35,351 bases of DNA from Acidobacteriota bacterium. GTDB lineage: Bacteria > Acidobacteriota > Holophagae > Thermotomaculales > Thermotomaculaceae. This document shows positions 1-12,368 of this stretch, in pieces. The notes under the pieces are model-generated. The model saw only the letters and a program-made list of their open reading frames with translations, was not told where the DNA came from and ran no database searches. Both the position numbers and the translations under genes were made by a program. Each line of letters starts with the position of its first letter. Position 1 is the first letter of the stretch. Location of the stretch: the NCBI GenBank assembly GCA_013152385.1, contig JAADGL010000058.1, positions 1 to 35,351 on the forward strand, written 5' to 3'.

Positions 1-29
1 TTATGACGGCGTTAACCGGAAGCCGGTAA
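1..29 (+). other. possible 3' end of an upstream gene
   Basis: The window opens a few dozen bases before an intrinsic terminator, so an upstream plus-strand gene probably ends here. In-frame stops occur at 4-6 (TGA) and 27-29 (TAA), in different frames. The sequence does not show which one is used, and too few codons remain to identify a product. Confidence 0.25.
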
Positions 30-70
30 AATCGGCGCCGAGGCCAGAAACAGGCCTGAACCGTTTATGC

Positions 71-102
71 AGAGGGCCGGGATTTTCCCGGCCCTCTTTT
101 TT
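71..102 (+). terminator. intrinsic terminator of the upstream transcript
   Basis: A perfect 12-bp inverted repeat (71-82 with 86-97) encloses a 3-nt loop and runs into a stretch of Ts ending near 102. On the minus strand the same hairpin is not followed by Ts, so it acts on transcripts entering from the left. It isolates the TPR-GGDEF gene from whatever lies upstream. Confidence 0.85.
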
Positions 103-221
103 ATCTGTAGCCGCGTACTTCCTGATACCCGATTTGCATTCCGGCAGCCACTTCCGTTTCCTTTTTTCCCGATAAAATTTATTATAACCGGGTTTGTTGA
201 TTCGCATTCATCAGCGTAATC

Positions 222-230
222 TGCTATCAT
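222..230 (+). promoter_or_regulatory. extended -10 promoter candidate for the TPR-GGDEF gene
   Basis: TG-C-TATCAT matches the extended -10 form TGnTATAAT in 8 of 9 positions. No good -35 box lies 17 nt upstream. The same TGnTATCAT element occurs before the membrane protein gene at 3083, and a related one before mrp, which supports a shared vegetative promoter style. The start point would fall near 237, giving a leader of about 25 nt. Confidence 0.4.
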
Positions 231-261
231 ATTGAATAGAACTCTCATAAAAGGACACCAA

Positions 262-2184
262 ATGAAAGCCGTTATTTCCTTCTTATTCTTAATGATTCTA
301 ACTGCACCCTTCATCTGCGCAAATGAAATAGAAAACATGGAAAAGAAACTTTCCATTACATCCGGAAAAGAGAAAGTCCGGCTTCAACTGGAACTGGCAG
401 GAAAATATCACTTCCGCTCTCCGCAGCGTGTGTTGGAGCTGGCAACGAAAGCTTACGCCGAAGCGATCAAACACAACTGGAATAAATTGGCTGCACAGGC
501 ACTTCTGGCTCAGGGAACCGGTTATTACTATAATTCCGAACTGGAAAAATCAGAAAAAGCATATAAAAACGCCCTGGCAGCCGGAAAAGCAATGAAAATG
601 CCATTGGTAATCGGAGGGGCACTGAATGGTATCGGAGTCGTCGCACTGTCCCGAGGTAAAACAGATGCCGCCCTGAAATTCATGGAGGACTCCCTCCCCT
701 ACTTAAAAAAGGCCGGTGTGAAAAGCAAACTGGCGGCAATCTACAATAATGTTTCTGTAATTTATTACAATAGGGGGCGATTCAGCACTGCACTTGACAA
801 TATTTCAAAGGCGCTGAAGCTCTATGAGGAAACAGACAACAAGGCCGGCATCTGCATCGCATTGAATGCCATCGGAAATATCCAGATCAAACTTTCCAGA
901 ATTGACGCGGGGCTGGCTTCTTTTAGAAAATCCCTGAAAATCAGTAGAGAAACCGGAAATCCGCAACTGGAACTCATCTCGCTGATCAACGTAGGAGATG
1001 TGGAACGCAAACAAGGCCATATTAAAGAAGCGCTGAAAAATTTTCGGGCCGCCCTGGAACTGGCAAAAGAAAATAAAAACCGGGATTACACCGGCGTCTG
1101 CCTAAACAATATCGGCGATGCGTACCGCAGCCTGGGAATGTACAAAAAAGCACTGAGAAATTATCTCGAAGCATTGACAATATTTGAAGAACTGAAGGCC
1201 AAACCGAGGATTTCATTCGCTCTTGCCAACATCGGCCAGCTGTACGCGCTGCGCCGACAACCGCAGAAGGCGGAAACCTACCTGCTGAAAGCCTACCGCA
1301 TGTCAAAAGAAATTCAGGATCAAAACAGGTTAAAAGACACAACCGAAAGTCTTTATCGTCTTTATGAGAAACAACATCGTTATAAAGAAGCTTTAAAATT
1401 CAGAAATGAATTTGACAAAATCAAAAACAAACAGATGTCTGCTCAAGCCTACGAAAAAATATCTCAACTGGAAGCCCGCCATGAAAAAGAAAAACGGCAA
1501 AAAGAGATTCAACTTTTGAAAAAAGAACAGGAAATCCGGGACGAACGGATCCGTCACCAACAGGTCACACTTACCCTCGTCGTCATTGCAACCATTCTGG
1601 CGCTGGTTCTCCTGATGACACTCTATCGCCGTTACAAACTGAAAGTCAAAAGCAGTAAAGAACTTGAAAAAGCATTTCAGAAAATGGAAGAACTCGCCGG
1701 TACCGATCAATTGACCGGGCTTTACAATCGCCGCTCTTTCCTTGAACGGGTTGAAATTGAAACCGTCCGAATGGGAAGAACATGGAAACCGTTCAGTTTT
1801 ATAATGCTGGATATTGACAACTTCAAAACAATCAATGACACTTTCGGCCACGAATGTGGGGACACCGTACTGAAAGCCCTCGCAAAAGCCCTGAAAAATT
1901 CTCTCCGCCTTCAGGATGTATCTGCCCGCTGGGGAGGAGAAGAATTCCTTCTTCTCCTGCCGGACACCGGTATTCAGGGTGCTTTCCGGCTTGCTGAAAA
2001 AATTCGCAGAAATATTGAATCTATCCGGGTTTCCTGCAACGGGGACACGATTCGATTTACCGTTTCCGCCGGGGTTTCCTCTTACGATCATCCCGGTGCA
2101 ATTGACAGTGTAATCCGAAAAGCTGACGAGGCCCTTTACCTTGCAAAAAAAAGTGGGAAAAATTGCGTTAAACAGACCACATAA
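262..2184 (+). CDS. exported TPR sensor diguanylate cyclase (GGDEF)
   Basis: 640 aa. It probably makes the second messenger c-di-GMP from two GTP in response to a periplasmic signal. Order: signal peptide (about 1-20), a long array of tetratricopeptide repeats (about 25-390, including TPR-like helix pairs such as NNIGDAYRSLGMYKKALRNY), a charged coiled coil (about 395-434), one transmembrane helix (about 436-457), then a GGDEF domain. The catalytic GGEEF is at 558-562, and RLQD at 549-552 lies exactly five residues ahead, which is the product-inhibition I-site. So the enzyme looks active and feedback-controlled. The ATG at 262 is preferred over one 30 nt upstream because AAAAGGA sits 8 nt before it and it opens the signal peptide. 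The pilin gene follows 187 nt downstream, and c-di-GMP commonly controls pili. No EAL domain is present. Confidence 0.9.
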   Translation: MKAVISFLFLMILTAPFICANEIENMEKKLSITSGKEKVRLQLELAGKYHFRSPQRVLELATKAYAEAIKHNWNKLAAQALLAQGTGYYYNSELEKSEKAYKNALAAGKAMKMPLVIGGALNGIGVVALSRGKTDAALKFMEDSLPYLKKAGVKSKLAAIYNNVSVIYYNRGRFSTALDNISKALKLYEETDNKAGICIALNAIGNIQIKLSRIDAGLASFRKSLKISRETGNPQLELISLINVGDVERKQGHIKEALKNFRAALELAKENKNRDYTGVCLNNIGDAYRSLGMYKKALRNYLEALTIFEELKAKPRISFALANIGQLYALRRQPQKAETYLLKAYRMSKEIQDQNRLKDTTESLYRLYEKQHRYKEALKFRNEFDKIKNKQMSAQAYEKISQLEARHEKEKRQKEIQLLKKEQEIRDERIRHQQVTLTLVVIATILALVLLMTLYRRYKLKVKSSKELEKAFQKMEELAGTDQLTGLYNRRSFLERVEIETVRMGRTWKPFSFIMLDIDNFKTINDTFGHECGDTVLKALAKALKNSLRLQDVSARWGGEEFLLLLPDTGIQGAFRLAEKIRRNIESIRVSCNGDTIRFTVSAGVSSYDHPGAIDSVIRKADEALYLAKKSGKNCVKQTT

Positions 2185-2247
2185 ACCGGTACTCCTGCAC
2201 TTATTCTCCAAAAAATGGAAAGTTCCAATGACAATTTTTTGTAAAGA

Positions 2248-2264
2248 GTGACAAATTTTGTCAC
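2248..2264. promoter_or_regulatory. 17-nt perfect inverted repeat, candidate operator or activator site
   Basis: GTGACAAA-T-TTTGTCAC is an 8-bp perfect dyad with a single central base. It lies about 55 nt upstream of the -24 element of the pilin sigma-54 promoter, and a related half (TGACAA) occurs at 2229. A dimeric regulator could bind it. The spacing of the GTGA/TCAC arms does not fit CRP/FNR sites, so the protein is unknown. It has no T tract and is not a terminator. Confidence 0.5.
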
Positions 2265-2318
2265 CAAGCTAAATCAATAAAATAAAAATTGGTCTTAATT
2301 TCTTACAGTTCCGTTTTT

Positions 2319-2334
2319 CGGTACTTTTCTTGCA
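2319..2334 (+). promoter_or_regulatory. sigma-54 (-24/-12) promoter of the pilin gene
   Basis: CGGTAC-TTTTC-TTGCA matches the RpoN consensus TGGCAC-N5-TTGCW, with both invariant GG and GC pairs separated by exactly 10 nt. Transcription would start near 2345, giving a leader of about 27 nt with a GGTGG ribosome site. Sigma-54 control of major pilin genes is known in Pseudomonas, Geobacter and Myxococcus, so the position before a pilin gene fits well. Confidence 0.75.
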
Positions 2335-2371
2335 GTAAATTCCATTAAACCAAAACAGGTGGAAAACAGTT

Positions 2372-2881
2372 ATGCCGAAAAACAGGAAAAACAACAGGCC
2401 AAACAGAAATATCGGCTTCACATTGATTGAATTATTAATCGTTGTAACCATCATTGCAATTCTCACCGCCATCGCAATTCCCGGCTATCTTGGGGCTCAG
2501 AACCGGGCAAAAATTGATTATTTAAAGGGAAACGCCAACACAATTGCCAAAACCCTTCAACTCTGGCTTACTTCTTCAAATGCAATAGATCCAACCGAAC
2601 GATATGCGGACACCAATGGCGATGGGATTCCGGATAAACTCGGTAAAAGAATCAAGGCCCAAAACCTGGTAAGAATTCTCGCCAGGGATCCGAAATTCAA
2701 GAATCTCAAAAACCCATACAACCCCAAACGGAAACTGATACGGAAACGTATCGCAAAACGGCCCGGCTATATCGGTATTTATGCCATCAACAGTACCACC
2801 ATTATCATCAACGCTGTAGCCAAATCACCTAACCGAAGGGGAGGCGTGGAAGTATTTCGAACAACTGTAAGCGGTGGATAA
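2372..2881 (+). CDS. type IV pilin-like protein (basic, cysteine-free)
   Basis: 169 aa. This is a prepilin with a 15-residue leader ending in Gly15, then the class III signal FTLIELLIVV with Glu at mature position 5 and a hydrophobic stretch continuing to about residue 40. A PilD-type peptidase would cut after Gly15 and N-methylate the Phe. The globular part has no cysteines, so it lacks the usual C-terminal disulfide loop. It carries DTNGDGIPD (about 84-92), a calcium-binding loop of the dockerin/thrombospondin type-3 kind. The C-terminal half is rich in Lys and Arg (for example KRKLIRKRIAKR). No other pilus assembly gene is in the window. It could be a major pilin, a minor pilin or a type II secretion pseudopilin. 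The strong sigma-54 promoter and stand-alone position favour a major or specialised pilin. Confidence 0.88.
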   Translation: MPKNRKNNRPNRNIGFTLIELLIVVTIIAILTAIAIPGYLGAQNRAKIDYLKGNANTIAKTLQLWLTSSNAIDPTERYADTNGDGIPDKLGKRIKAQNLVRILARDPKFKNLKNPYNPKRKLIRKRIAKRPGYIGIYAINSTTIIINAVAKSPNRRGGVEVFRTTVSGG

Positions 2882-3024
2882 TGCAGTCCGGAAAACTATA
2901 TGCAAGTTGAGAATTCCGGATTCAAGAGATTGAAAATTCAAAGTTAATTCTCACCGAGCGTAAACCTGAAGTTCCCTTTGGCCACAATCGTCTGTTTTTT
3001 TTGCATGCGCTCACTCTGCCACTT

Positions 3025-3033
3025 TGTTATCAT
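3025..3033 (+). promoter_or_regulatory. extended -10 promoter candidate for the membrane protein-ferredoxin pair
   Basis: TG-T-TATCAT is an extended -10 element, the same as the one at 222-230. A start near 3040 gives a leader of about 43 nt. The nearest -35-like box (TTGCAT, 3001-3006) is too far away at 21 nt. The rest of the gap between the pilin and this gene (2882-3082) holds only a 7-bp inverted repeat (2887-2893 with 2914-2920) without a T tract. Confidence 0.35.
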
Positions 3034-3082
3034 ACAAATGCTGTCTGAACGGGACAGCCAAATGATCACAGGGAGATATTGT

Positions 3083-3718
3083 ATGGGTGAAGAGGTAATT
3101 GCCAAAGGGTTGGAAGTCTGGACACTTCAGACACTTGTAAATATTTCCATCTTATTGGGTTTTTTTGCATTGGGCCTTGCCATTGCTCAGGGATATTTTT
3201 CCTCACTGCGGGAACGGCTCACGCTGAGAGTATCCATTGAACTGTGGGATGTTATTCTTATCCTAATTACGGACATGTTCCTGGTTGTCGTTGTTTTACT
3301 GGGATTTCTGGTTCTGAATCCCGATATCATGGCAGATATCAAAATTGCCGTCCCTTTCGTCCCGCTTGGGACAATCTTGTTCGCCATTGCACTGGTTATC
3401 CGCTTATTTTACGGGGGACATCATCCCTCCAACCCCCGTTTCCGGCTGGCACTTCTATTCATGTTTTCGGCTGTTTTCGTCCAGACAATAGGATTCTCTC
3501 TCATTATGGAAGCTCCGGGAAAAGAATATCTTGCACTTCATCCAAGCCCATTCTGGAATTTTATAAAAATGAATTTCCGCTCCAATGCAACCCCCCACGG
3601 ACTGGAACTGGCACAACTGACTTTTTCCGTCCTCTTCCCGATTCTAATTATGGTGTTCATCTGGGGGTTTATTCGCGCACTGAAACAACTGAATACAACC
3701 CCATTCGCCCGGAAATAA
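3083..3718 (+). CDS. small multi-pass membrane protein of unknown function
   Basis: 211 aa with about five hydrophobic helices: near 17-36, 50-75, 85-105, 118-140 and 180-203. A hydrophilic segment of roughly 45 residues precedes the last helix. The ATG at 3083 is chosen because GGGAG lies 7 nt before it; an upstream ATG at 2978 in the same frame has no ribosome site and would overlap the promoter. I do not recognise the family, and there are no conserved Cys or His pairs that would obviously bind haem or metal. The ferredoxin gene starts 4 nt after the stop, so the two are almost certainly co-transcribed. The protein may be the membrane anchor or partner of an electron-transfer step, but that is inference from position only. 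Confidence 0.7.
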   Translation: MGEEVIAKGLEVWTLQTLVNISILLGFFALGLAIAQGYFSSLRERLTLRVSIELWDVILILITDMFLVVVVLLGFLVLNPDIMADIKIAVPFVPLGTILFAIALVIRLFYGGHHPSNPRFRLALLFMFSAVFVQTIGFSLIMEAPGKEYLALHPSPFWNFIKMNFRSNATPHGLELAQLTFSVLFPILIMVFIWGFIRALKQLNTTPFARK

Positions 3719-3722
3719 TCCC

Positions 3723-3929
3723 ATGGAATGGAAGTGGACACGAAAAGACAATGCCTGCACCGGATGCGGAATCTGCCTGGATGTCTGTCAGGAAGAAGCG
3801 ATTCTGATGACACGGGAAATGGGACTGCCGGAAGCTCTTCCCGGAGCCTGCACCGGATGCAGAGAATGCGAAAGGGAATGCCCTTTTGAAGCGATCACGG
3901 TAACGATCTGTCAAAATGACAAGCTTTGA
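3723..3929 (+). CDS. 2[4Fe-4S] ferredoxin-like protein
   Basis: 68 aa. It has two complete CxxCxxCxxxC cluster motifs: Cys12, 15, 18 and 22, then Cys43, 46, 49 and 53. The second is followed by the usual Pro and the first by Gln. This is the bacterial clostridial-type ferredoxin fold, a small cytosolic carrier of low-potential electrons. The linker between clusters (REMGLPEALPGA) is slightly longer than in minimal ferredoxins. It starts 4 nt after the membrane protein gene without a strong ribosome site of its own, suggesting coupled translation. It may be a subunit dedicated to that membrane protein rather than a general ferredoxin. Confidence 0.9.
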   Translation: MEWKWTRKDNACTGCGICLDVCQEEAILMTREMGLPEALPGACTGCRECERECPFEAITVTICQNDKL

Positions 3930-4059
3930 ACAGCCTTCCGGAAGTCAAAAAGCTTTTCTCTTTCTTTCCCTGGGATTTTCCGTTACACTTGTGGCATGAA
4001 ATCATATTGTCCAGCGGGATAAAGAAACTGTCTTTCATCCCACAAGGAGGGAGAAAGCG

Positions 4060-6054
4060 ATGAAATGTCCAAACTGCCATGAAACACTCACCGGTCCCTG
4101 TTTAGTCTGCCCCGGCTGCGGAACCGTCTTCACCGGTGAAACTGCTGAAAAAATCTCACTTTATTTTGATGTAAAAGAGCAGCTGGCATATCTGAGCACT
4201 TTGAAGAATTACCTTGACAGCTCCCTGACAAGCCTGAATACCAGTCTCGGCAGGCTTGAAAAAGTCATGACAGAATCCCTGGACGAACATCCTGCCGGCG
4301 AACCGGAATCCGCCGCCGGCCCTGCGGAAAATCATCTTCACCCCGGGGCCGAAAATAAGTTCACAGAAGAAATTCCGGCCGAATCAGCTGTCCGGAAACC
4401 CGAATACCTGTCGTCCCCTTCCCCACTGTCCGCCCCGCCACCTGCAGCCATTGGAGAAAACGAATTTCATTTCGGCCAGAAATGGCTCCTCATCATCGGA
4501 ATTATCACAATGGTATTTGCAGTGGGATATTTTCTGAAATACTCGTTCACAAAAGGCTGGGTCGGCCCCACCGGCCGTGTTGCCCTTTCCTATTTCTGGG
4601 GAATCGTATTTCTCGGGATGGGAGAATGGTTCCGAAAGAAAGACTTCCGTGCCTTCGGATTATCCCTTACGGGAGGCGGCATCGCCGTCCTTTACTTTGC
4701 CACTTTTGCCGGATTTCAGCTCTATCATCTGGTCTCTTTTGGGGTTTCTTTTTCACTGATGCTTGTCATAACCTGCTTTTCAGCAGTACTGGCAATTATT
4801 TATGACACAAAATGGCTTGCCGCGCTGGGAACACTGGGCGGCTTTTTAACCCCCCTCCTCCTGTCCACCCACAGTCCAAACCAAATTGCCCTGATGTCCT
4901 ACATGCTGATTCTCAACCTCGGAATTCTTGTACTGGCAACAAGAAAAAGCTGGCGCATCCTGGAATCCATCGGGTTTGTTTTTACCTGGCTCCTGTACAC
5001 TGCCTGGTACGCCCCCTATTATAAAACAGCTTGTTTCTGGCCTTCCATCATCTTTCTTCTTCTTTTCTTTCTCATCTACGCGATTCTCCCGGTAGCCGGC
5101 ACCCTCTATCGGAAAAGCACTCGTTCCATCAGCAGTCTGTGGTTTGCCGCCCCGAACGCGCTCATTACTTTCGGGTTTGCCTTTGCCCTGGTGACAGACC
5201 GGTTCAGTACGCCCTATGTTTCCATTGTCACAATTCTCATTGCCGTCGTTTTCCTTACACTGGCAAACCGGCTGTCAAAGGACGATACTCCGAAAAGTTC
5301 CGCATTCTGGTACCTCGTTGCCAATGCGGTGTTTTATCTTGTTCTAACTGTTCCTATCCTCTTTTCTTCCAACTGGATTACAATTTTCTGGGCACTGGAA
5401 GCTGCACTGACCATCTGGCTGGGCCTGAAAACGGAAAGGAAGTGGATGACTGCAACCGGAATTACACTGATTCTCATTGTCGCAGGAAAATTCATTTTCT
5501 ATGATTATCACTTTGTTTTCCACCTTTCCCGTTCATGGTATTTTTACAACATCCTCTACACGAAAATGCTCCCGGAACGAATTCTCACAGCCGCGGCGGT
5601 TTTAACCGCTCTTTACAAAAGCAGCCGGCAGCTTCACAGCTCGGCAATCCACGCCCGAAGCCGATGGGGAGGGATTCTTTTTGTCGCTTTTGCCGCCACA
5701 CTTTTTATCACGTTGACCATTGAAACCGCTGCGTTTTTTCACCAGTATGTACCGGGTGCACGTTTTGCTTCCATCTCCATTCTCTGGGCAATCTTTGCCT
5801 CCGCGCTGATGGTGCAGGGTTTCCGAAAGGAAAACGGTATCATGCGCAAAACCGCTATTGCGATTTTTATTGTCACCCTGTTCAAAGTATTTCTTGTGGA
5901 TATTTCCCATTTCAGTACACCCTATCGCATCCTGTCTTTTCTTGTTCTGGGCATGCTTCTCATTACTTCTTCGTGGCTGTATCACCATTTCAGGAAGATG
6001 CTGACGGAAAACGCCGAAGCAGAAAACAGAAGGGGAAAAGATGAAACCGTTTAA
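4060..6054 (+). CDS. DUF2339 polytopic membrane protein with N-terminal zinc ribbon
   Basis: 664 aa. Residues 3-20 form a zinc ribbon (CPNC ... CPGC). A soluble, partly coiled and then acidic/proline-rich linker runs to about 140. From about 145 to 645 there is a dense series of perhaps 16-18 transmembrane helices. The first membrane block, with FLKYSFTKGWVGPTGRVAL, is the hallmark of DUF2339. The family has no established biochemical function. At 664 aa this is shorter than many members. The ATG at 4060 follows a near-perfect ribosome site (AAGGAGGG). The next gene, DUF3999, overlaps the end by 14 nt; DUF2339 and DUF3999 are often neighbours, so they probably form one envelope complex. The 130-nt gap upstream has only a weak promoter-like pair (GTTACA 3982-3987, TATTGT 4005-4010). 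Confidence 0.85.
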   Translation: MKCPNCHETLTGPCLVCPGCGTVFTGETAEKISLYFDVKEQLAYLSTLKNYLDSSLTSLNTSLGRLEKVMTESLDEHPAGEPESAAGPAENHLHPGAENKFTEEIPAESAVRKPEYLSSPSPLSAPPPAAIGENEFHFGQKWLLIIGIITMVFAVGYFLKYSFTKGWVGPTGRVALSYFWGIVFLGMGEWFRKKDFRAFGLSLTGGGIAVLYFATFAGFQLYHLVSFGVSFSLMLVITCFSAVLAIIYDTKWLAALGTLGGFLTPLLLSTHSPNQIALMSYMLILNLGILVLATRKSWRILESIGFVFTWLLYTAWYAPYYKTACFWPSIIFLLLFFLIYAILPVAGTLYRKSTRSISSLWFAAPNALITFGFAFALVTDRFSTPYVSIVTILIAVVFLTLANRLSKDDTPKSSAFWYLVANAVFYLVLTVPILFSSNWITIFWALEAALTIWLGLKTERKWMTATGITLILIVAGKFIFYDYHFVFHLSRSWYFYNILYTKMLPERILTAAAVLTALYKSSRQLHSSAIHARSRWGGILFVAFAATLFITLTIETAAFFHQYVPGARFASISILWAIFASALMVQGFRKENGIMRKTAIAIFIVTLFKVFLVDISHFSTPYRILSFLVLGMLLITSSWLYHHFRKMLTENAEAENRRGKDETV

Positions 6055-7360
6055 GTTCATAATCCCTGTATTTCTGCTTTTTTGTTTTGTCTCTTCCGCC
6101 GGGGTGCTGAAACCGGAAAATTTCCGCTACAGCCGGGAATTACCCGGACCGCTGGCAATTGGGAAAATTTACAAAATTCCGCTTCCCGGAGAAGTATTGA
6201 ATCATACCGCCACAGACCAGCGGGACATTCGTATTTTTTCCCCGGACGGCAAACTGATTCCATTTACAATACTGGAAGAAAGAAAAGCTGCTGTTCCCAT
6301 GTTATTGTTTCACTTAACAATCCGTGCATTTTCAACAAAAAAAAATATCACAACCCTGTTGCTGGAAGTCCCGGCGCAGAGAATGGCAATGAGAGAACTT
6401 TTTTTTGCCACTCCCAACAAAAATTTTAAGAAAACAGTCTCCATCAGCATCAGCAATGACAAAAAGAACTGGCAGCCAGTTGCAAATGAAAGCATTTACG
6501 ACTTCAGCAGGAATGTGGACCTGAGAAAAACCTCGGTATCTTTCAAACCTGTCAAATGCCGATGGGTAAAAATCAAAATGAAGGATGCCGAGCTTCCCGC
6601 CGGAAATGAAGCAATCCAATTGAATTACAAAGGGCTCCGCTTTACCAGTAAGGGAAAATTCACGCCGGCATTTAAAATCATCTCCGTCAGCGGCCTGAGC
6701 CAGCCTTCGGGCACAGGAAAGACCATCACTGACACAATGAAAATCACCGACTTTACCATTCAAACCGATGCCGCAGGCAACAGCATCCTGTCATTTTCCA
6801 GCGGCATTCCCATTTCCGCACTTTCCATCATCACCGATGCCCCCGCTTTCTACCGAAGTGTCATTTTGAAAGGAGAACGCATCACAATTAACCGCCATAA
6901 GATTTTCCTGGCGAAAGGCAGTTTTTACCGCTTTTTACTTGACGGCCGGACGGAAAGCAGGCTGACACTGCTTGCACACCCTTCCGATACCGGAAACTAT
7001 ACGCTCATCATTCACAACGGCGACAATAGTGCCCTCCCGATTAAGGCGTTGAAGCTCAGCTGGTTTCGCCGGAATATTTTCCTTATACCGGAAACCAAGA
7101 CAGTTGCCCGTGCCATACTCTGCTATGGGAACCTGAAAATCCCGGCAGCACACTTTGATGTTTCCCGCTTCATCCGCCAGGATAATTGGCAACAGCACAA
7201 AACCGCAGTAATTAATCCGAAAACTTGTGTGCAGAACCCTGATTTTCAGCAGGCGGAAAAACCCTGGACTCCGGATTTCTCCCGTATTGCCCTGACCCTC
7301 ATTGTCCTGATGCTGATCGTGGTGTTGTCCATCTGGATGTGGAAGTTGACCCGAAACTAA
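6041..7360 (+). CDS. DUF3999 exported, membrane-anchored protein
   Basis: 439 aa. It has an N-terminal signal peptide (about 1-20), a long beta-rich periplasmic region and a single C-terminal transmembrane helix (about 412-435) ending in a short basic tail. The N-terminal block, with RDIRIFSPDGKLIPFTI, and the overall plan fit DUF3999. Its start codon lies inside the last codons of the DUF2339 gene, preceded by AGGGGAA, so the two are translationally coupled. The topology suggests a large periplasmic domain sitting on the polytopic DUF2339 partner, possibly binding an envelope polymer or ligand; no catalytic motif is visible. A terminator follows directly after the stop codon. Confidence 0.8.
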   Translation: MKPFKFIIPVFLLFCFVSSAGVLKPENFRYSRELPGPLAIGKIYKIPLPGEVLNHTATDQRDIRIFSPDGKLIPFTILEERKAAVPMLLFHLTIRAFSTKKNITTLLLEVPAQRMAMRELFFATPNKNFKKTVSISISNDKKNWQPVANESIYDFSRNVDLRKTSVSFKPVKCRWVKIKMKDAELPAGNEAIQLNYKGLRFTSKGKFTPAFKIISVSGLSQPSGTGKTITDTMKITDFTIQTDAAGNSILSFSSGIPISALSIITDAPAFYRSVILKGERITINRHKIFLAKGSFYRFLLDGRTESRLTLLAHPSDTGNYTLIIHNGDNSALPIKALKLSWFRRNIFLIPETKTVARAILCYGNLKIPAAHFDVSRFIRQDNWQQHKTAVINPKTCVQNPDFQQAEKPWTPDFSRIALTLIVLMLIVVLSIWMWKLTRN

Positions 7361-7394
7361 AAAAAGCAGGGAATTTGACATTCCCCGCTTTTTT
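7359..7394. terminator. bidirectional intrinsic terminator
   Basis: The hairpin pairs AAAAAGC-A-GGGAAT with ATTCCC-C-GCTTTTT around a 5-nt loop, with one A/C mismatch. A-runs on the left and T-runs on the right let it work on both strands. It sits between the convergent DUF3999 gene (+) and the repeat protein gene (-). Confidence 0.85.
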
Positions 7395-7448
7395 CCAGAC
7401 AGCCACCCGGCTACAAATTCCAAAACACGCGAACCTGCCGCAGGCGCA

Positions 7449-8765
7449 TCAATAATTCCAGAGCAGAACCCCATAATTCCCAACGGCTATCCAGCGGGGG
7501 CCGTTTATATCGGCCGCCACAGGATACCCCCGGTCAGCAACAGGGCCGTCATCAATCAGCGTATCGGTAGAAGCACGGTAATGGTAAGTGGAATAACTGG
7601 TACAGACAATAAAGTTTCCCTCTTCCGTCATTTTTGCAGAGAGGTAATCTCCCAGCCCCATTCCGTCGTATTGAAAAATATTGTTCAGAAAGATACCGTC
7701 GGTTCCAACCGCAATCCAATCGCCGCTGTCATTGATATCCACCGCCACCATTTCACCCGGTGCGGTCACAGGATTAAAGTTCTGATTGTCATTGTAAATC
7801 AGATAGTCGTCACCCGCCGCCACATAGTCGGTATAGTTGTTGATGGCACAACTATGGAAAGAAGTGGCTGCTTTCGCTACTTTTTTTCGAACCTTATGAT
7901 TGAGATACCAGGGCTTGTAATGATAATTCACTGTGAATTTCACATTTCCTGCCGCTTTGTGCACAGCAATCGGAATATCCGCTCCAACAACCCGGGGAAC
8001 CGCCTTTGACGATTTTTTTCGAACCAGCCTGACCTCCATGGACTTCTTACCGTTTGTCAGGCCGAGAAGGGTATTGATTGCACCGGTTGCCACAAAATCG
8101 CCATTTGCGTTTATATCTGTCCATACCGAATCGTTTGAAACAGACACCGGGTCATAGCTGGTCAACTGCACGGTATTCTGATCGTCAATATACCCATAAA
8201 GAACCTGCAATGAACCGGCTGCCACAAACTCATCATTCTCATTCAGAGAACAGTGGGAATATTCACCAACATTGTTGACATAGTCCAGAAAAGTCGGCGC
8301 CTGTGCCCCACTGCCGATATACACGCCATCTTCGGAAGAGACAAGCCAGGTATCATTATTGTTGATAGCCGCGTTGATAAATGTACCGTTGGTATTATCA
8401 TAAACTTTTTTCAGATTCCCGCTTAAATCCCCGAAATAAATCCCATGCTCGAAAGCGGCAATAAAATTTCCGTTATCATTCAATGCAATTGCACGGTCCG
8501 AATCGGTACTTCCGGTATCCATGGAAATCAGGTTGAAATCCGTCTGGTTTCCGTTTCCAAACGCAATTCCCCGGCTTCCGGCCGCCACCCACTCACCGTA
8601 GCTGTTAATCGACGCTCCGACAAAAGCGGCTCCGCTGGACACATCACCGATCAAATCATTGTCCCCGATATTAATTCCCACATCCACATGACTGCCGGAT
8701 GAGCAGGAAATCTGCCACCCGGCAACTACCGCTAAAAACCCAATCAAAATAAACAGCCTTTTCAT
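7449..8765 (-). CDS. exported repeat protein, probable beta-propeller
   Basis: 438 aa. The signal sequence ends around Cys21 in the context WQISC; this is a poor lipobox (Gln instead of Leu at -3), so lipidation is uncertain. The rest is about nine divergent repeats of 40-50 residues with the core IN-x-x-G-[DEN]-[WF]-[VI]-A-[AV]-G followed by G-[IV]-x-[YFL]. Examples are INSYGEWVAAGSRGIAFG, INANGDFVATGAINTLLG and INDSGDWIAVGTDGIFLN; the last copy (INGPRWIAVGNYGVLLWNY) forms the C-terminus. Blade-sized repeats with conserved Gly and Trp suggest a beta-propeller that scaffolds or binds ligands at the cell surface. Between repeats 5 and 6 there is a Lys/Arg-rich insertion of about 65 residues. 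The start has GGGAGG 4 nt upstream. It is divergent from the TPR gene at 8859. Confidence 0.75.
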   Translation of the reverse strand: MKRLFILIGFLAVVAGWQISCSSGSHVDVGINIGDNDLIGDVSSGAAFVGASINSYGEWVAAGSRGIAFGNGNQTDFNLISMDTGSTDSDRAIALNDNGNFIAAFEHGIYFGDLSGNLKKVYDNTNGTFINAAINNNDTWLVSSEDGVYIGSGAQAPTFLDYVNNVGEYSHCSLNENDEFVAAGSLQVLYGYIDDQNTVQLTSYDPVSVSNDSVWTDINANGDFVATGAINTLLGLTNGKKSMEVRLVRKKSSKAVPRVVGADIPIAVHKAAGNVKFTVNYHYKPWYLNHKVRKKVAKAATSFHSCAINNYTDYVAAGDDYLIYNDNQNFNPVTAPGEMVAVDINDSGDWIAVGTDGIFLNNIFQYDGMGLGDYLSAKMTEEGNFIVCTSYSTYHYRASTDTLIDDGPVADRGYPVAADINGPRWIAVGNYGVLLWNY

Positions 8766-8800
8766 ATCGCCTCCCTGAATTCAGTATTCGGTAAATTGTT

Positions 8801-8829
8801 TTGCAATATCCGTTCCATAAAACTATACT
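8801..8829 (+). promoter_or_regulatory. sigma-70 type promoter of the TPR gene
   Basis: TTGCAA (8801-8806), a spacer of exactly 17 nt, then TATACT (8824-8829). The start would be near 8836, about 23 nt before the ATG. It lies in the 93-nt gap shared with the divergent repeat-protein gene. Confidence 0.65.
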
Positions 8830-8858
8830 ACATTATGAAAACTGTTTTGAGGTGAGAT

Positions 8859-10025
8859 ATGTCACGATTCGGGTTGTTCGGGAAACTGGGAAAAAAAGAT
8901 TGTAACAAATTGAAATTAAAAGGTGATAAACAATTTTCAAAAGGAGAGTATTATCTCGCTCTGGTGGCATACGAGGACGCTGTCGCGGTTTCCGACTGTC
9001 CTTCTGAGGTTACAGTTCGGATAAAGGAAAAAATAGAGGAATGTAAACTGAAACTGGCACGCCACAATCTGCAGCTTGCGCAGTCCCACTTCGAGGCAGA
9101 AGAATTCGAAACCGCCGCAGACTTTGCCACAACCTGCCTCCGGTACGTAACAGACGAAAAAACCCGGGAAACCGCCCGGCACATCCTTGATGAAATTGAC
9201 AAACAGTATGACCAATTTGAAGCTGTTTTCGGCCCGGATCAGGCAAAACAGGAATTACTGCCGGAAGATGACGACGCCTACGCGGAAATTCTTATTGCCA
9301 ATTACCCTGAATTTATCCAAAGGGAAATCCAGGAAAACGAGGCGCTGAAACACGCGATGGCAGCACTGAACCGTGAAGATTTTGAGAAGGGAAAAGCTAT
9401 CCTGGAACTGGAAGAATCCCCGGCTGTACTCTATTTTCAGGCATTATATTATTCTCTGAAAAAAGAATACACAACCGCTCTTGAAATCTTTCTGCGCCTT
9501 TCCGGAAAATACCCGGACCTGCTGGACGGGCCGCGCTGGGCAGAACTCATTGAACTCATTGCCCGGGCTGAATCCGATGAACCGATTGATGAAATTCTGG
9601 AAAACTACCCCTTCCCTTCTGTAATCCGTGCCGCCGTCACCTTTTATATGGGGAGAGAGGAAATGGATGCCGCAGGAGAACTGCTGGAAGAAAGCCTGGA
9701 AGCAATGTCTCCCAACCGGCCGGATCCTCTGCTGATCGCGCTGGCCGGAATCTACCGTTTCCGGTTGAAAGAGTTTGAAAAAGCTGTGGAACACCTGACC
9801 CGCTTTCAGAACCTGATGGCAATGAGCGGCCAATTCACACTGAGCCCGGAATACGCAGTTCCCCTTGCCATCTCGCTGGAACAGACAGGGCAGAACGACG
9901 AAGCCTTGGAAATTGCCCTGCACACGGCAAAAATTTACGGGATTCCGGAAGCGATCGAACTCTCCCGCACCCTTGCCGGGAAATCCGGCCGGGAAGATTT
10001 GAAAAGACTGGCTGAAAAACTGTGA
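8859..10025 (+). CDS. cytosolic TPR-like protein
   Basis: 388 aa, with no signal peptide or membrane segment. The N-terminal 110 residues contain helix pairs typical of tetratricopeptide repeats (KGDKQFSKGEYYLALVAYED; LAQSHFEAEEFETAADFA). A more divergent helical middle and further TPR-like pairs follow (KEYTTALEIFLRLSGKYPD; LKEFEKAVEHLTRFQNL). The protein is acidic and has only a few cysteines. Such proteins act as protein-interaction scaffolds; no enzymatic domain is visible and I cannot name a partner. GAGGTGA lies 4 nt before the ATG. The gene is transcribed alone and is convergent with the TolB-like gene; the 71-nt gap between them has no clear terminator. Confidence 0.75.
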   Translation: MSRFGLFGKLGKKDCNKLKLKGDKQFSKGEYYLALVAYEDAVAVSDCPSEVTVRIKEKIEECKLKLARHNLQLAQSHFEAEEFETAADFATTCLRYVTDEKTRETARHILDEIDKQYDQFEAVFGPDQAKQELLPEDDDAYAEILIANYPEFIQREIQENEALKHAMAALNREDFEKGKAILELEESPAVLYFQALYYSLKKEYTTALEIFLRLSGKYPDLLDGPRWAELIELIARAESDEPIDEILENYPFPSVIRAAVTFYMGREEMDAAGELLEESLEAMSPNRPDPLLIALAGIYRFRLKEFEKAVEHLTRFQNLMAMSGQFTLSPEYAVPLAISLEQTGQNDEALEIALHTAKIYGIPEAIELSRTLAGKSGREDLKRLAEKL

Positions 10026-10096
10026 GGGAAAAGCCCGGTATCCCGGAGCCGAAACATATTCATCAAGTCAGCAGCCGCTTATCCGCGGAAATCCAC

Positions 10097-11449
10097 TTAT
10101 TGATGTTCCGCAGATCCGGATTGCTTTGCCGCTGTAAGTGTCTTTAATTTTTTACACGCATCTGCATCCTTACACCGGTTGCAGAGCATCTCCAGGGCAT
10201 CTTTCTGCAAGGGATCCAGATAAAGAATTTTCTGCAGGGAATCAATCGCTTCATCTTTTTCCCCCGCATTCAGTGCCTCCCTTGCTTTTTCCAGATACAA
10301 CTCTTTGATTTCCAGCAAATCCGGCACAGTAGAATCTGTTTTCCCGCCCGTGCAGAACTGATACATTGACAACAGGCCCGGCTTTCCCTTTTGTGCGGAC
10401 ACAGCATCCTCCGTATCGGCACAAAGCGGATGCGAACCACTGCATCTCCCGCAGCAAAAGAAGGCAAGCACTTTCGCCTTGTCGGTGAACCGGAACACCG
10501 CAACATAGCGGCTCAGGACATCCAGTGCAAAATTCCATTTCCCCTGTGCCGCCTCAACCACCGCACGGTCAAACAGAACCACCGGCTCCTTCACCGGCGT
10601 TTTTTCCGGAAGAGAATCCAGAAAAGCGGAAGCCTCCGCGGGATGTCCGAGATTCAGCAGACAACCGGCGGCATTTACAACCGACGCGGTGTCTCTCCTG
10701 GTTTTCAACGTTTGAAGAAAATAAATAAGCCCGTCCGAAAATTTTTTCAAAACGGTACAGCACATCCCCGACCGGAACAGTCCCGCCGTATCCGTCTCCG
10801 GCAACCGTTTCAAATACAAAAGTGCCTCTTTGTACCGGCCGGTATCATAAAGAAGATTGCCGAGATTCCGGTTCAGCGGTTCACAGTCGGAAATTTTTCC
10901 GGCAAGCTTTTCAATTTCCGTAAAATCATCGTTTACTCCCGCCCGGAGCATCCCCCGGACATAAGCTTCAAAAGCATGACTGCTGAACGTTTTCGGATAC
11001 GGATAAGCGGCACCGGTTTCCTTTCGGATAAAGGGAGCAAGATCAGCAGGAAACCCGAATTTTGACACGGTACACCGCGCCTTTTTTTCAAGAAGACGAT
11101 CAATCCGATAACAAAAAAACTCAATGGAAATGATATTGTCTGAAATCGAAAAATTACCGGTAATCAGCGTGTCCGCACCCAGTTTCCGGGCAATAATCAC
11201 CCGTGTGGCCAGCGTCAGGCCGGCGGTATCCGGTACATCCATCCGGTCCACAGCATCCATTCTGTCCGAAAGGGAGACAGCCCCCAGGCTGTCCTCAAAA
11301 AGGACTTCAAGGCCGTAACTCAGCCATTCAACCCGGCTGTTATCCGAACGGTTTTCAAAGGGAAAAACAACAACCTTCCCCCGTGCCATTAAAAAGGGAG
11401 AAAACAAAAGAAACAGGAATATAAAACTATTCCGTTTCGTCATTATCAT
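10097..11449 (-). CDS. exported TolB-like/TPR protein, cysteine-rich
   Basis: 450 aa. Signal peptide about 1-23. Residues about 24-140 resemble the N-terminal fold of TolB/FlgO/CsgG-like periplasmic proteins (KVVVFPFENRSDN, then RKLGADTLITGNF). From about 150 on there are TPR-like helices (LGNLLYDTGRYKEALLYLK; EKAREALNAGEKDEAIDSL). It contains an unusual number of cysteines for a TPR protein, clustered around FFCCGRCSGSHPLC and near the C-terminus (MLCNRCKDADAC). In the periplasm these could form disulfides or bind metal. The start overlaps the end of the PIN-TRAM gene by 23 nt (or 17 nt from the Met at 11443), so it is probably translated from the same mRNA. The function is not known; envelope scaffolding is a guess. 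Confidence 0.7.
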   Translation of the reverse strand: MIMTKRNSFIFLFLLFSPFLMARGKVVVFPFENRSDNSRVEWLSYGLEVLFEDSLGAVSLSDRMDAVDRMDVPDTAGLTLATRVIIARKLGADTLITGNFSISDNIISIEFFCYRIDRLLEKKARCTVSKFGFPADLAPFIRKETGAAYPYPKTFSSHAFEAYVRGMLRAGVNDDFTEIEKLAGKISDCEPLNRNLGNLLYDTGRYKEALLYLKRLPETDTAGLFRSGMCCTVLKKFSDGLIYFLQTLKTRRDTASVVNAAGCLLNLGHPAEASAFLDSLPEKTPVKEPVVLFDRAVVEAAQGKWNFALDVLSRYVAVFRFTDKAKVLAFFCCGRCSGSHPLCADTEDAVSAQKGKPGLLSMYQFCTGGKTDSTVPDLLEIKELYLEKAREALNAGEKDEAIDSLQKILYLDPLQKDALEMLCNRCKDADACKKLKTLTAAKQSGSAEHQ

Positions 11450-12368
11450 TTACCGTTCCAAAAATCATTTTTCCCGCCGGATTCTGCAACACACTTGTAA
11501 TCGTTGCCTGAACCCGCTTTCCGATAAAATTCTCCCCGCCGTCAATTACCACCATTGTTCCGTCATCAAGGTACCCAACACCCTGGTCTTCTTCTTTTCC
11601 TTTTTTGATAATGTGAATTGAAATTCGCTCACCCGGAAGTGCCACCGGTTTCAGCGCATTTGCCAGTTCATTGATATTCAAAACTTCAATTTCTTCCAGA
11701 GATGCAACCCGGTTCAATGTGTAATCATTGGTCACGATTTTACCTTTCAGCTTCTTTGCCAGCGCAATCATCCGCTGATCCACATCTTTTTCCCCGGAAA
11801 AATCAAGTTCACAAATCCGAAACTGAATACTTTTCATATTCTGTAACTTACGAATCAATTCCAGTGCGTGTTCCGCCCGCTGCTGCTTCAGCTCTTTACC
11901 GGTTTCGTGAATCCGCTGAATCTGTTTCATCACAAACCGCGGAACAACAATTGTCCCGTCCAGGAACCCTGTCTCCACAATATCCACAATCCGCCCATCC
12001 ATCAAAATAGACGCATCCAGAATCTTGGTACACCGCATTCCATCAACATGCCCCATTGCCACCGGAGTCATTCCCACATTTTGAGACGGAATCAGCAGCG
12101 CGCTGACAACAGCGAGATACAGCACGCCGAAAAGAACAAAATACTGTTCCGTTCCGGTTAAATTCAACACCGGAATCAAAACCCAGGCGACAAATGAAAA
12201 TACCAGCAGCGCCATTAAAAACCCGCTTACATACTTTTTCATATAACGGGAAAGGAGAAAATCGGAAATTGCCAGTACCGCAACCACCGTAGCCGCAACG
12301 GGGAAATTACCGGAAAATATTGAATACCCCAGCAAACAAAAATAAAAAAACAATTTCACATAAACCAT
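11427..12368 (-). CDS. membrane-anchored PIN-TRAM domain protein (YacL family)
   Basis: 313 aa. Four hydrophobic helices (about 4-18, 22-39, 48-68, 75-95) are followed by a cytosolic PIN nuclease domain (about 112-235) and a C-terminal TRAM RNA-binding domain (about 240-305). Candidate PIN metal-binding acids are Asp118 (in KILDASILMDGR), Asp197 and Asp215 (in IVTNDYTLNR). This is the arrangement of YacL-type proteins common in Firmicutes and many other phyla; the cellular RNA target is not established. The ATG at 12368 is chosen because GGAGGT lies 7 nt upstream. The same frame is open further upstream, but that part is antisense to mrp and not protein-like. It is the first gene of a two-gene unit with the TolB-like/TPR gene and is divergent from mrp. 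Confidence 0.9.
   Translation of the reverse strand: MVYVKLFFYFCLLGYSIFSGNFPVAATVVAVLAISDFLLSRYMKKYVSGFLMALLVFSFVAWVLIPVLNLTGTEQYFVLFGVLYLAVVSALLIPSQNVGMTPVAMGHVDGMRCTKILDASILMDGRIVDIVETGFLDGTIVVPRFVMKQIQRIHETGKELKQQRAEHALELIRKLQNMKSIQFRICELDFSGEKDVDQRMIALAKKLKGKIVTNDYTLNRVASLEEIEVLNINELANALKPVALPGERISIHIIKKGKEEDQGVGYLDDGTMVVIDGGENFIGKRVQATITSVLQNPAGKMIFGTVNDNDETE

Follow-up and report, generated by a model that had tools for sequence, protein, structure and literature searches.

We found that a five-helix membrane protein outside the recognized families (here called M) and a small 2[4Fe-4S] ferredoxin (Fd) form a conserved gene pair: 22 of 28 M loci have an Fd coding region on the same strand directly after M, whereas no short dicluster ferredoxin occurs in 396 kb of control sequence (20 regions from six M-bearing genomes, 15 of the regions coming from one genus). 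Hence, the recurrence of the pair exceeds chance. We tentatively propose, with somewhat less than even confidence, that M and Fd are two subunits of a small inner-membrane electron-transfer module. The pair was detected in the DNA stretch analyzed here (the window), which is a whole 35,351-base contig of a 2.57 Mb draft genome with 99% completeness.

M is encoded on the plus strand at positions 3083..3718 (ATG 3083 to stop 3718), a 211-aa open reading frame preceded by a likely ribosome-binding site, AGGGAG (3070..3075, plus strand), 7 nt before the ATG, and the start residue is the same in close relatives. An AlphaFold2 model of M with a mean pLDDT of 87.5 and a pTM of 0.84 contains five long helices (residues 3-43, 49-77, 92-109, 118-142, and 171-204) plus short ones, which agrees with the five-helix membrane protein described in the initial annotation, and the protein is predicted to reside in the inner membrane. 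Between M and two of its relatives, dN was 0.13 and 0.15, far below the dS values of 1.8 and 2.0, which are near saturation, and M is therefore under purifying selection.

The Fd gene follows M after 4 nt (3723..3929, plus strand, ATG 3723 to stop 3929) and encodes a 68-aa bacterial-type 2[4Fe-4S] ferredoxin with W3-x-W5 close to its N-terminus. The cluster motifs are C12-T-G-C-G-I-C-L-D-V-C22 (3756..3788, plus strand) and C43-T-G-C-R-E-C-E-R-E-C53 (3849..3881, plus strand). Two CxxCxxCxxxC motifs in a small protein together with a Fer4 profile match assign Fd to the 2[4Fe-4S] ferredoxins; the Pfam matches over the cut-off were Fer4 (6.2e-11), Fer4_7, and Fer4_10. Its sequence lacks an N-terminal extension that could serve as a signal peptide. 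We saw no Shine-Dalgarno-like run before the Fd start in the window, so that both the 4-nt spacing and the lack of a strong ribosome site for Fd hold as first described. A search of window positions 1-12000 with Rfam gave nothing above the gathering scores. The pair is flanked upstream by a gene for a pilin-like protein with an N-terminal methylation motif (2372-2881) and downstream by a DUF2339 membrane protein gene that overlaps a DUF3999 gene (4060-7360), followed on the minus strand by a gene for a 438-aa probable lipoprotein for which no Pfam family scored over the cut-off (7449-8765).

The survey of the pair covered 28 M loci in 27 genomes from five phylum-level groups, including two incomplete loci, L048 (only the last ~80 residues of M) and L063 (M broken and decayed); two weak matches, in genomes G039 and G012 (E about 0.055), were left out of the count. 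Twenty of the 22 ferredoxins beside M have two cluster motifs, one has a single motif left (L067), and one is decayed (L063). Among 21 pairs, 7 show a 4-nt overlap between the Fd start and the M stop, and in 7 more, including the window, the Fd start comes 2-4 nt after that stop; it is elsewhere or unclear in the remaining 7, and in L020 there is no standard start codon at the usual place. The pairwise distances of M and Fd correlate (r=0.79, 19 pairs, permutation p about 0.0005, excluding the copies of L067, L048, and L063), which is what joint inheritance as a unit would produce. No Fd was found within 1,500 nt of M in six of the 28 loci (L065, L039, L041, L043, L046, and L047). Five of these form one clade in the tree (100/100), and the sixth, L065 (row L010), has a branch of its own within a larger group (99/98) that contains this clade and also two Fd-bearing members. 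Hence, Fd is usual beside M and not obligatory. The co-occurrence that the initial annotation suggested looking for in other genomes is therefore real, and its idea of a dedicated pairing holds for the link itself, which is conserved across phyla, and fails as a strict rule.

Two of the copies are altered. Genome G002 carries two copies of M; the ferredoxin next to one of them (L067 9396-9683, the same place as in L002) has lost a cluster motif, apparently by an in-frame deletion between the two CTGC repeats, and the other G002 copy keeps both motifs. In L063 (7214-7714 and downstream), the match to M ends after about profile position 139 and the broken gene is followed by a one-motif ferredoxin remnant in another frame.

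We searched for relatives of M among known families, using an alignment of 24 M sequences and scanning each of these singly against Pfam and NCBIfam. No Pfam, NCBIfam, or PDB-sequence family matched M. The 24 sequences gave scattered matches to unrelated families, each in one to three members, with best E values of 0.0048 (Pfam) and 0.009 (NCBIfam), and profiles built from 14 and 24 members found nothing credible among PDB sequences (best E of 0.76 and 2.5). A Foldseek search of the model against PDB chains returned nothing at E<=0.001 (best E of 0.22). With VIA-align, the best Z was 9.6, which is within the range that its notes give for a common helix arrangement, and heme-copper oxidase subunit III chains were in the list at Z of about 7-8, which is common for helical bundles according to the same notes. 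We obtained no credible match of M to an unrelated family, the finding that the initial annotation had named as counting against it, and M deserves the label of an unrecognized family with respect to the libraries searched. We also found no paper on the family in open-licence PMC text, either by search terms or with the peptide NPDIMAD.

Several specific memberships were considered and rejected. A weak similarity to NrsF (E=0.07, below the cut-off) appeared in 2 of the 24 members and was taken as a chance hit. M has no corrinoid domain and matched no HgcA or similar model of Pfam or NCBIfam, which excludes it from HgcAB. At the sensitivity of HMMER, none of the 24 sequences matched RnfD, RnfA, RnfE, or NqrB at E<=1, and the same was true for NrfD/PsrC and NapH models of Pfam or NCBIfam; no Rnf-like protein was present among the ten window proteins that were scanned with Pfam. 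A b-type cytochrome membrane subunit (NarI-like or other) was rejected because no histidine occurs in the columns conserved in at least 22 of the 24 rows.

The topology of M was predicted from the charges of its loops. The mean number of Lys and Arg residues in the 24 members was 3.42 in loop 1-2, 2.50 in loop 3-4, and 3.00 in the C-terminus, compared with 1.42 in the N-terminus, 1.00 in loop 2-3, and 2.42 in loop 4-5, which is 30 residues long. The prediction is therefore N-out/C-in, with the first three segments in the cytoplasm and the other three in the periplasm, and it agrees with the signal-peptide-like N-terminal extensions that four of the five Fd-less clade members carry, as judged by eye. 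Based on the alignment and the loop charges, residues 79-94 (NPDIMADIKIAVPFVP; 3317..3364, plus strand) are predicted to lie on the periplasmic side, and N79, D81, D85, K87, P91, and P94 within this segment are invariant in all 24 rows. The other invariant positions on or near the predicted periplasmic side are K8, E11, W13, G137, E143, W158, and S167; D64, which is midway along helix 2 and thus about halfway across the membrane, and the helix 5 residue F181 are also invariant. Hence, given the predicted topology, most invariant polar residues of M face the periplasm. No His or Cys is conserved in the 24-row alignment and M therefore has no heme or Fe-S ligands, in line with the initial annotation, which saw no obvious heme motif.

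The lack of a recognizable cofactor site leaves room for M to be a transporter, an anchor, a quinone reductase, or part of a sensor. One role to set against these residues is that of a membrane anchor or scaffold, which would hold a dedicated Fd at the membrane for another enzyme without any electrons passing through M. An anchor would have no need of a cofactor motif and would account for the conserved pairing, but the strongest conservation of M is periplasmic, where a cytoplasmic anchor would not need it, and M persists without Fd in 6 of the 28 loci. We therefore regard an anchor as unlikely.

We compared the five Fd-less M proteins of the clade with closer Fd-bearing ones, using five diverged Fd-bearing M proteins as a control. 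The two cytoplasmic loops of the Fd-less clade lost most similarity, with ratios to the control of 0.59 and 0.45, and the periplasmic segments kept it (0.77, 0.92, and 1.03). There were two exceptions: helix 2 had a ratio of 0.61, as low as the loops though it is not one, and the C-terminal cytoplasmic tail was unchanged at 1.01. With caution, we read the two loop ratios as the release of a docking surface for Fd, which suggests that Fd docks on M.

We analyzed the distribution of M within genomes drawn from different phyla. M was present in 17 of 297 genomes of its own phylum, in 4 of 80 genomes of the phylum of L003 (a Krumholzibacteriia record), in 1 of 195 genomes of the phylum of L011 (Myxococcota according to the tree tool), in 2 of 194 and 3 of 194 genomes in two overlapping draws from one further phylum, and in 2 of 8 genomes of another; the absences were counted in draft genomes and are soft. 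M had no match in collections of plasmids and phages or in viral contigs, and carriage on known mobile elements was rejected on these grounds. The nearest named carrier is an Acidobacteriota MAG with an M that is 79% identical. In the tree, the window M falls into a group (100/97) with three sequences from Krumholzibacteriia and both M copies of a related genome, and it is only 48-50% identical to the M proteins of three other genomes of its own class. This pattern suggests that M was transferred between phyla, with mis-binned MAG contigs as a possible alternative explanation.

A constant third gene was sought in the neighborhood of M by clustering open reading frames of at least 80 aa, in flanks of unequal length. 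Apart from the frames of M and the ferredoxin, no cluster spanned more than 6 of the 28 loci; the two clusters that reached six combine broad families, and close relatives account for most of the smaller clusters. Hence, the third subunit that had been suspected elsewhere is not supported as a fixed neighbor. The sparse distribution, the apparent transfer between phyla, and the absence of a fixed pathway neighbor are also what one would expect of a regulatory or sensing pair, in which Fd would report the cytoplasmic redox state to M and M would act on a process in the envelope. However, neither M nor Fd contains a signaling domain detectable with Pfam or NCBIfam, and the weak similarity to NrsF is confined to the two members mentioned above; we consider such a function very improbable.

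We next looked at genes that adjoin the pair and could point to a redox partner. Genes for c-type cytochromes adjoin M in 5 of the 28 loci, in three lineages (L019, L020, and L021, all of one genus, L039, and L045). In L019 and L020, a one-heme protein that ends in Phe and has a near-Cyc2 motif is followed by a 104-aa one-heme protein, M, and Fd, and in L021 a different one-heme protein of the near-Cyc2 kind is located upstream. The near-Cyc2 proteins of these three loci matched a relaxed Cyc2 pattern and not the strict one, and the relaxed motif was absent from the 20 control regions (396 kb). In L039, a 5-heme protein is followed by a 378-aa protein with a Cyc2 motif (AIPAFARKY-GFS-CSVCH-APF-PHL), whose gene is the one directly upstream of M. 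Cyc2 is characterized by AXPXFAR[Q/K][T/Y] before CXXCH, PXL after it, and a length of at least 365 aa (PMC8406198), and the 378-aa protein has all of these; the first motif is placed 5 residues upstream of CXXCH in the same source, compared with 3 residues between them in L039. The 378-aa protein had no Pfam or NCBIfam match at E<=0.001. In L045, Fd is separated by 140-290 nt, according to which start is used, from a downstream gene for a protein with 7 CxxCH motifs; next come a 610-aa protein without a family and a decaheme cytochrome, for which the DmsE family was the best model, below the cut-off.

A crude screen detected 11 cytochrome-like open reading frames in 224 kb around M, 3 of which were NapH-like false positives, and 8 in the 396 kb of control sequence, some of them doubtful. 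By the same screen, 23 of the 28 loci, including the window, have no c-type cytochrome within 4.5 kb or up to the contig end. Of 61 genomes of the window's class, 3 have the near-Cyc2 cytochrome of L019; two of these carry M, and one (G037) does not. The model of this putative outer-membrane cytochrome, built from three near-identical sequences, had a mean pLDDT of 26.5 and gave no proof of a fused beta-barrel. Because L019-L021 belong to a single genus, the cytochromes beside M represent at most a few independent cases; this genus also supplied 15 of the 20 control regions. The redox role initially suggested for M is supported by the cytochromes indirectly.

The cytochrome-c assembly family PF01578 was present in 25 of the 27 M-bearing genomes and in 33 of 36 others, and genome-wide cytochrome-c assembly was therefore rejected as a correlate of M. 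The two M-bearing genomes lacking PF01578, G154 and G282, are Fd-less, which indicates that M can work without c-type cytochromes, at least in the Fd-less clade. Since PF01578 is as common without M and is absent from these two genomes, a c-type partner is not obligatory.

Alternatively, M could hold a quinone pocket and act with Fd, without any other partner, as a ferredoxin:quinone oxidoreductase. Indeed, MenG/UbiE scored over the cut-off in 22 of the 27 M-bearing genomes (in two of them only after neighboring hits in the frame were added), including G154 and G282, and cofactor-free quinone-binding subunits beside Fe-S proteins exist in the NrfD/PsrC systems. Yet five M-bearing genomes had no MenG/UbiE over the cut-off (G066, which is 100% complete, G207, G326, G329, and G797), compared with a match in 16 of 22 genomes without M, and the conserved pocket would be on the side away from Fd, which would leave a long electron path without a cofactor. 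We find a quinone oxidoreductase improbable, and the gaps in PF01578 and MenG/UbiE among M-bearing genomes mean that neither cytochromes nor quinones were proved obligatory. In three genomes of one genus, a gene for a long NapH/NapG-like ferredoxin-type membrane protein is located on the opposite strand just beyond the Fd-less M (L041 8587-10029, L039 8132-9565, and L046 8997-10424); the models for it were below the cut-off in L041, the locus that was scanned.

Other neighbors are connected with the transport of ions. In L062 (4308-9013), M and Fd lie within a same-strand run of genes for a two-part ModA-type binding protein, a molybdate-type permease, an ATPase, and a second binding protein; the ModA-type protein scored over the cut-off, and the permease and ATPase are nearest to molybdate, tungstate, or sulfate types, below the cut-offs. 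A binding protein and an ABC permease are encoded nearby on the other strand in L066, the pair has cation-efflux (CDF) genes next to it in L064, L008, and L063, and CusB/CusA-like genes are found 7-9 kb from the pair in L045. A two-component system upstream of the cytochrome-M-Fd genes in L019 (3325-5494) and L021 (4784-6139) is nearest to the heavy-metal type TIGR01386/TIGR01387, below the cut-off (both genes in L019, the kinase only in L021). These genes would fit a role of M in moving a metal ion or an oxyanion, as a transporter or an ion-coupled permease, with the periplasmic acidic pocket binding the substrate and Fd supplying reducing power inside. However, clusters of ABC ATPase, CDF, and RND genes occur in only 4, 3, and 4 of the 28 loci, such genes are common, and M offers no conserved Cys or His for a soft-metal site, so that a transporter appears rather unlikely to us.

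We return to the electron-transfer module as the explanation that we tentatively favor. Fd would dock in the cytoplasm on the cytoplasmic loops of M and give or take low-potential electrons. M would combine a conserved acid-rich pocket on the periplasmic face with D64 halfway through the membrane, and we infer that it exchanges electrons with a partner on the outer side. This partner would differ between lineages and might in some of them be a c-type cytochrome leading to a Cyc2-like or Mtr-like outer-membrane conduit. As M has no recognizable motif, any redox cofactor within it would need to be a bound quinone or a non-canonical cofactor. That the pair is a quinone-bypassing gate between the cytoplasmic ferredoxin pool and periplasmic or outer-membrane conduits, operating in either direction with a new kind of cofactor site, seems distinctly doubtful.

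Were M-Fd to move electrons between ferredoxin and the periplasm, it would rank among the smallest membrane ferredoxin systems, and anaerobes would gain a ferredoxin-to-envelope route that does not depend on Rnf or hydrogenase. M belongs to a strongly conserved family that has no match in the searched libraries and has seemingly moved across phyla, and two short genes with a defined set of invariant residues make M-Fd tractable to study.

Overall, M-Fd shares features with several known systems. Genes of the Cyc2- and Mtr-type conduits are neighbors of M in L039 (Cyc2 motif), L019-L021 (near Cyc2), and L045 (decaheme), but these are outer-membrane systems, whereas M is predicted to be in the inner membrane and, by the crude screen, lacks them in 23 of 28 loci. 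Rnf and Nqr are likewise membrane systems linked to a low-potential Fe-S carrier; they comprise about six genes instead of two, and no Rnf/Nqr model was among the matches of M. In NrfD/PsrC systems, too, a membrane protein without an evident cofactor is encoded beside an Fe-S protein. However, the NrfD/PsrC membrane subunit has eight helices compared with the five of M, M has no match to the family, and Fd, which has no export signal in its sequence, is taken as cytoplasmic. The nearest precedent in layout is HgcAB, the mercury-methylation pair, a two-gene unit that joins a 2[4Fe-4S] ferredoxin to a protein whose membrane domain has five helices (PMC7305189). HgcB was also among the nearest NCBIfam models for Fd (E of 1.2e-7, 31.5 bits versus a cut-off of 99). 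Unlike HgcA, the 211-aa M is a membrane protein throughout and has no corrinoid domain. In HgcB, a Cys about 12 residues past the second cluster motif is strictly conserved (PMC7305189), whereas 16 of 20 ferredoxins beside M have no Cys after the last cluster motif; the window Fd has a Cys 10 residues after C53. M represents a family that is not in the libraries searched, and M-Fd falls among the ferredoxin-linked membrane modules.
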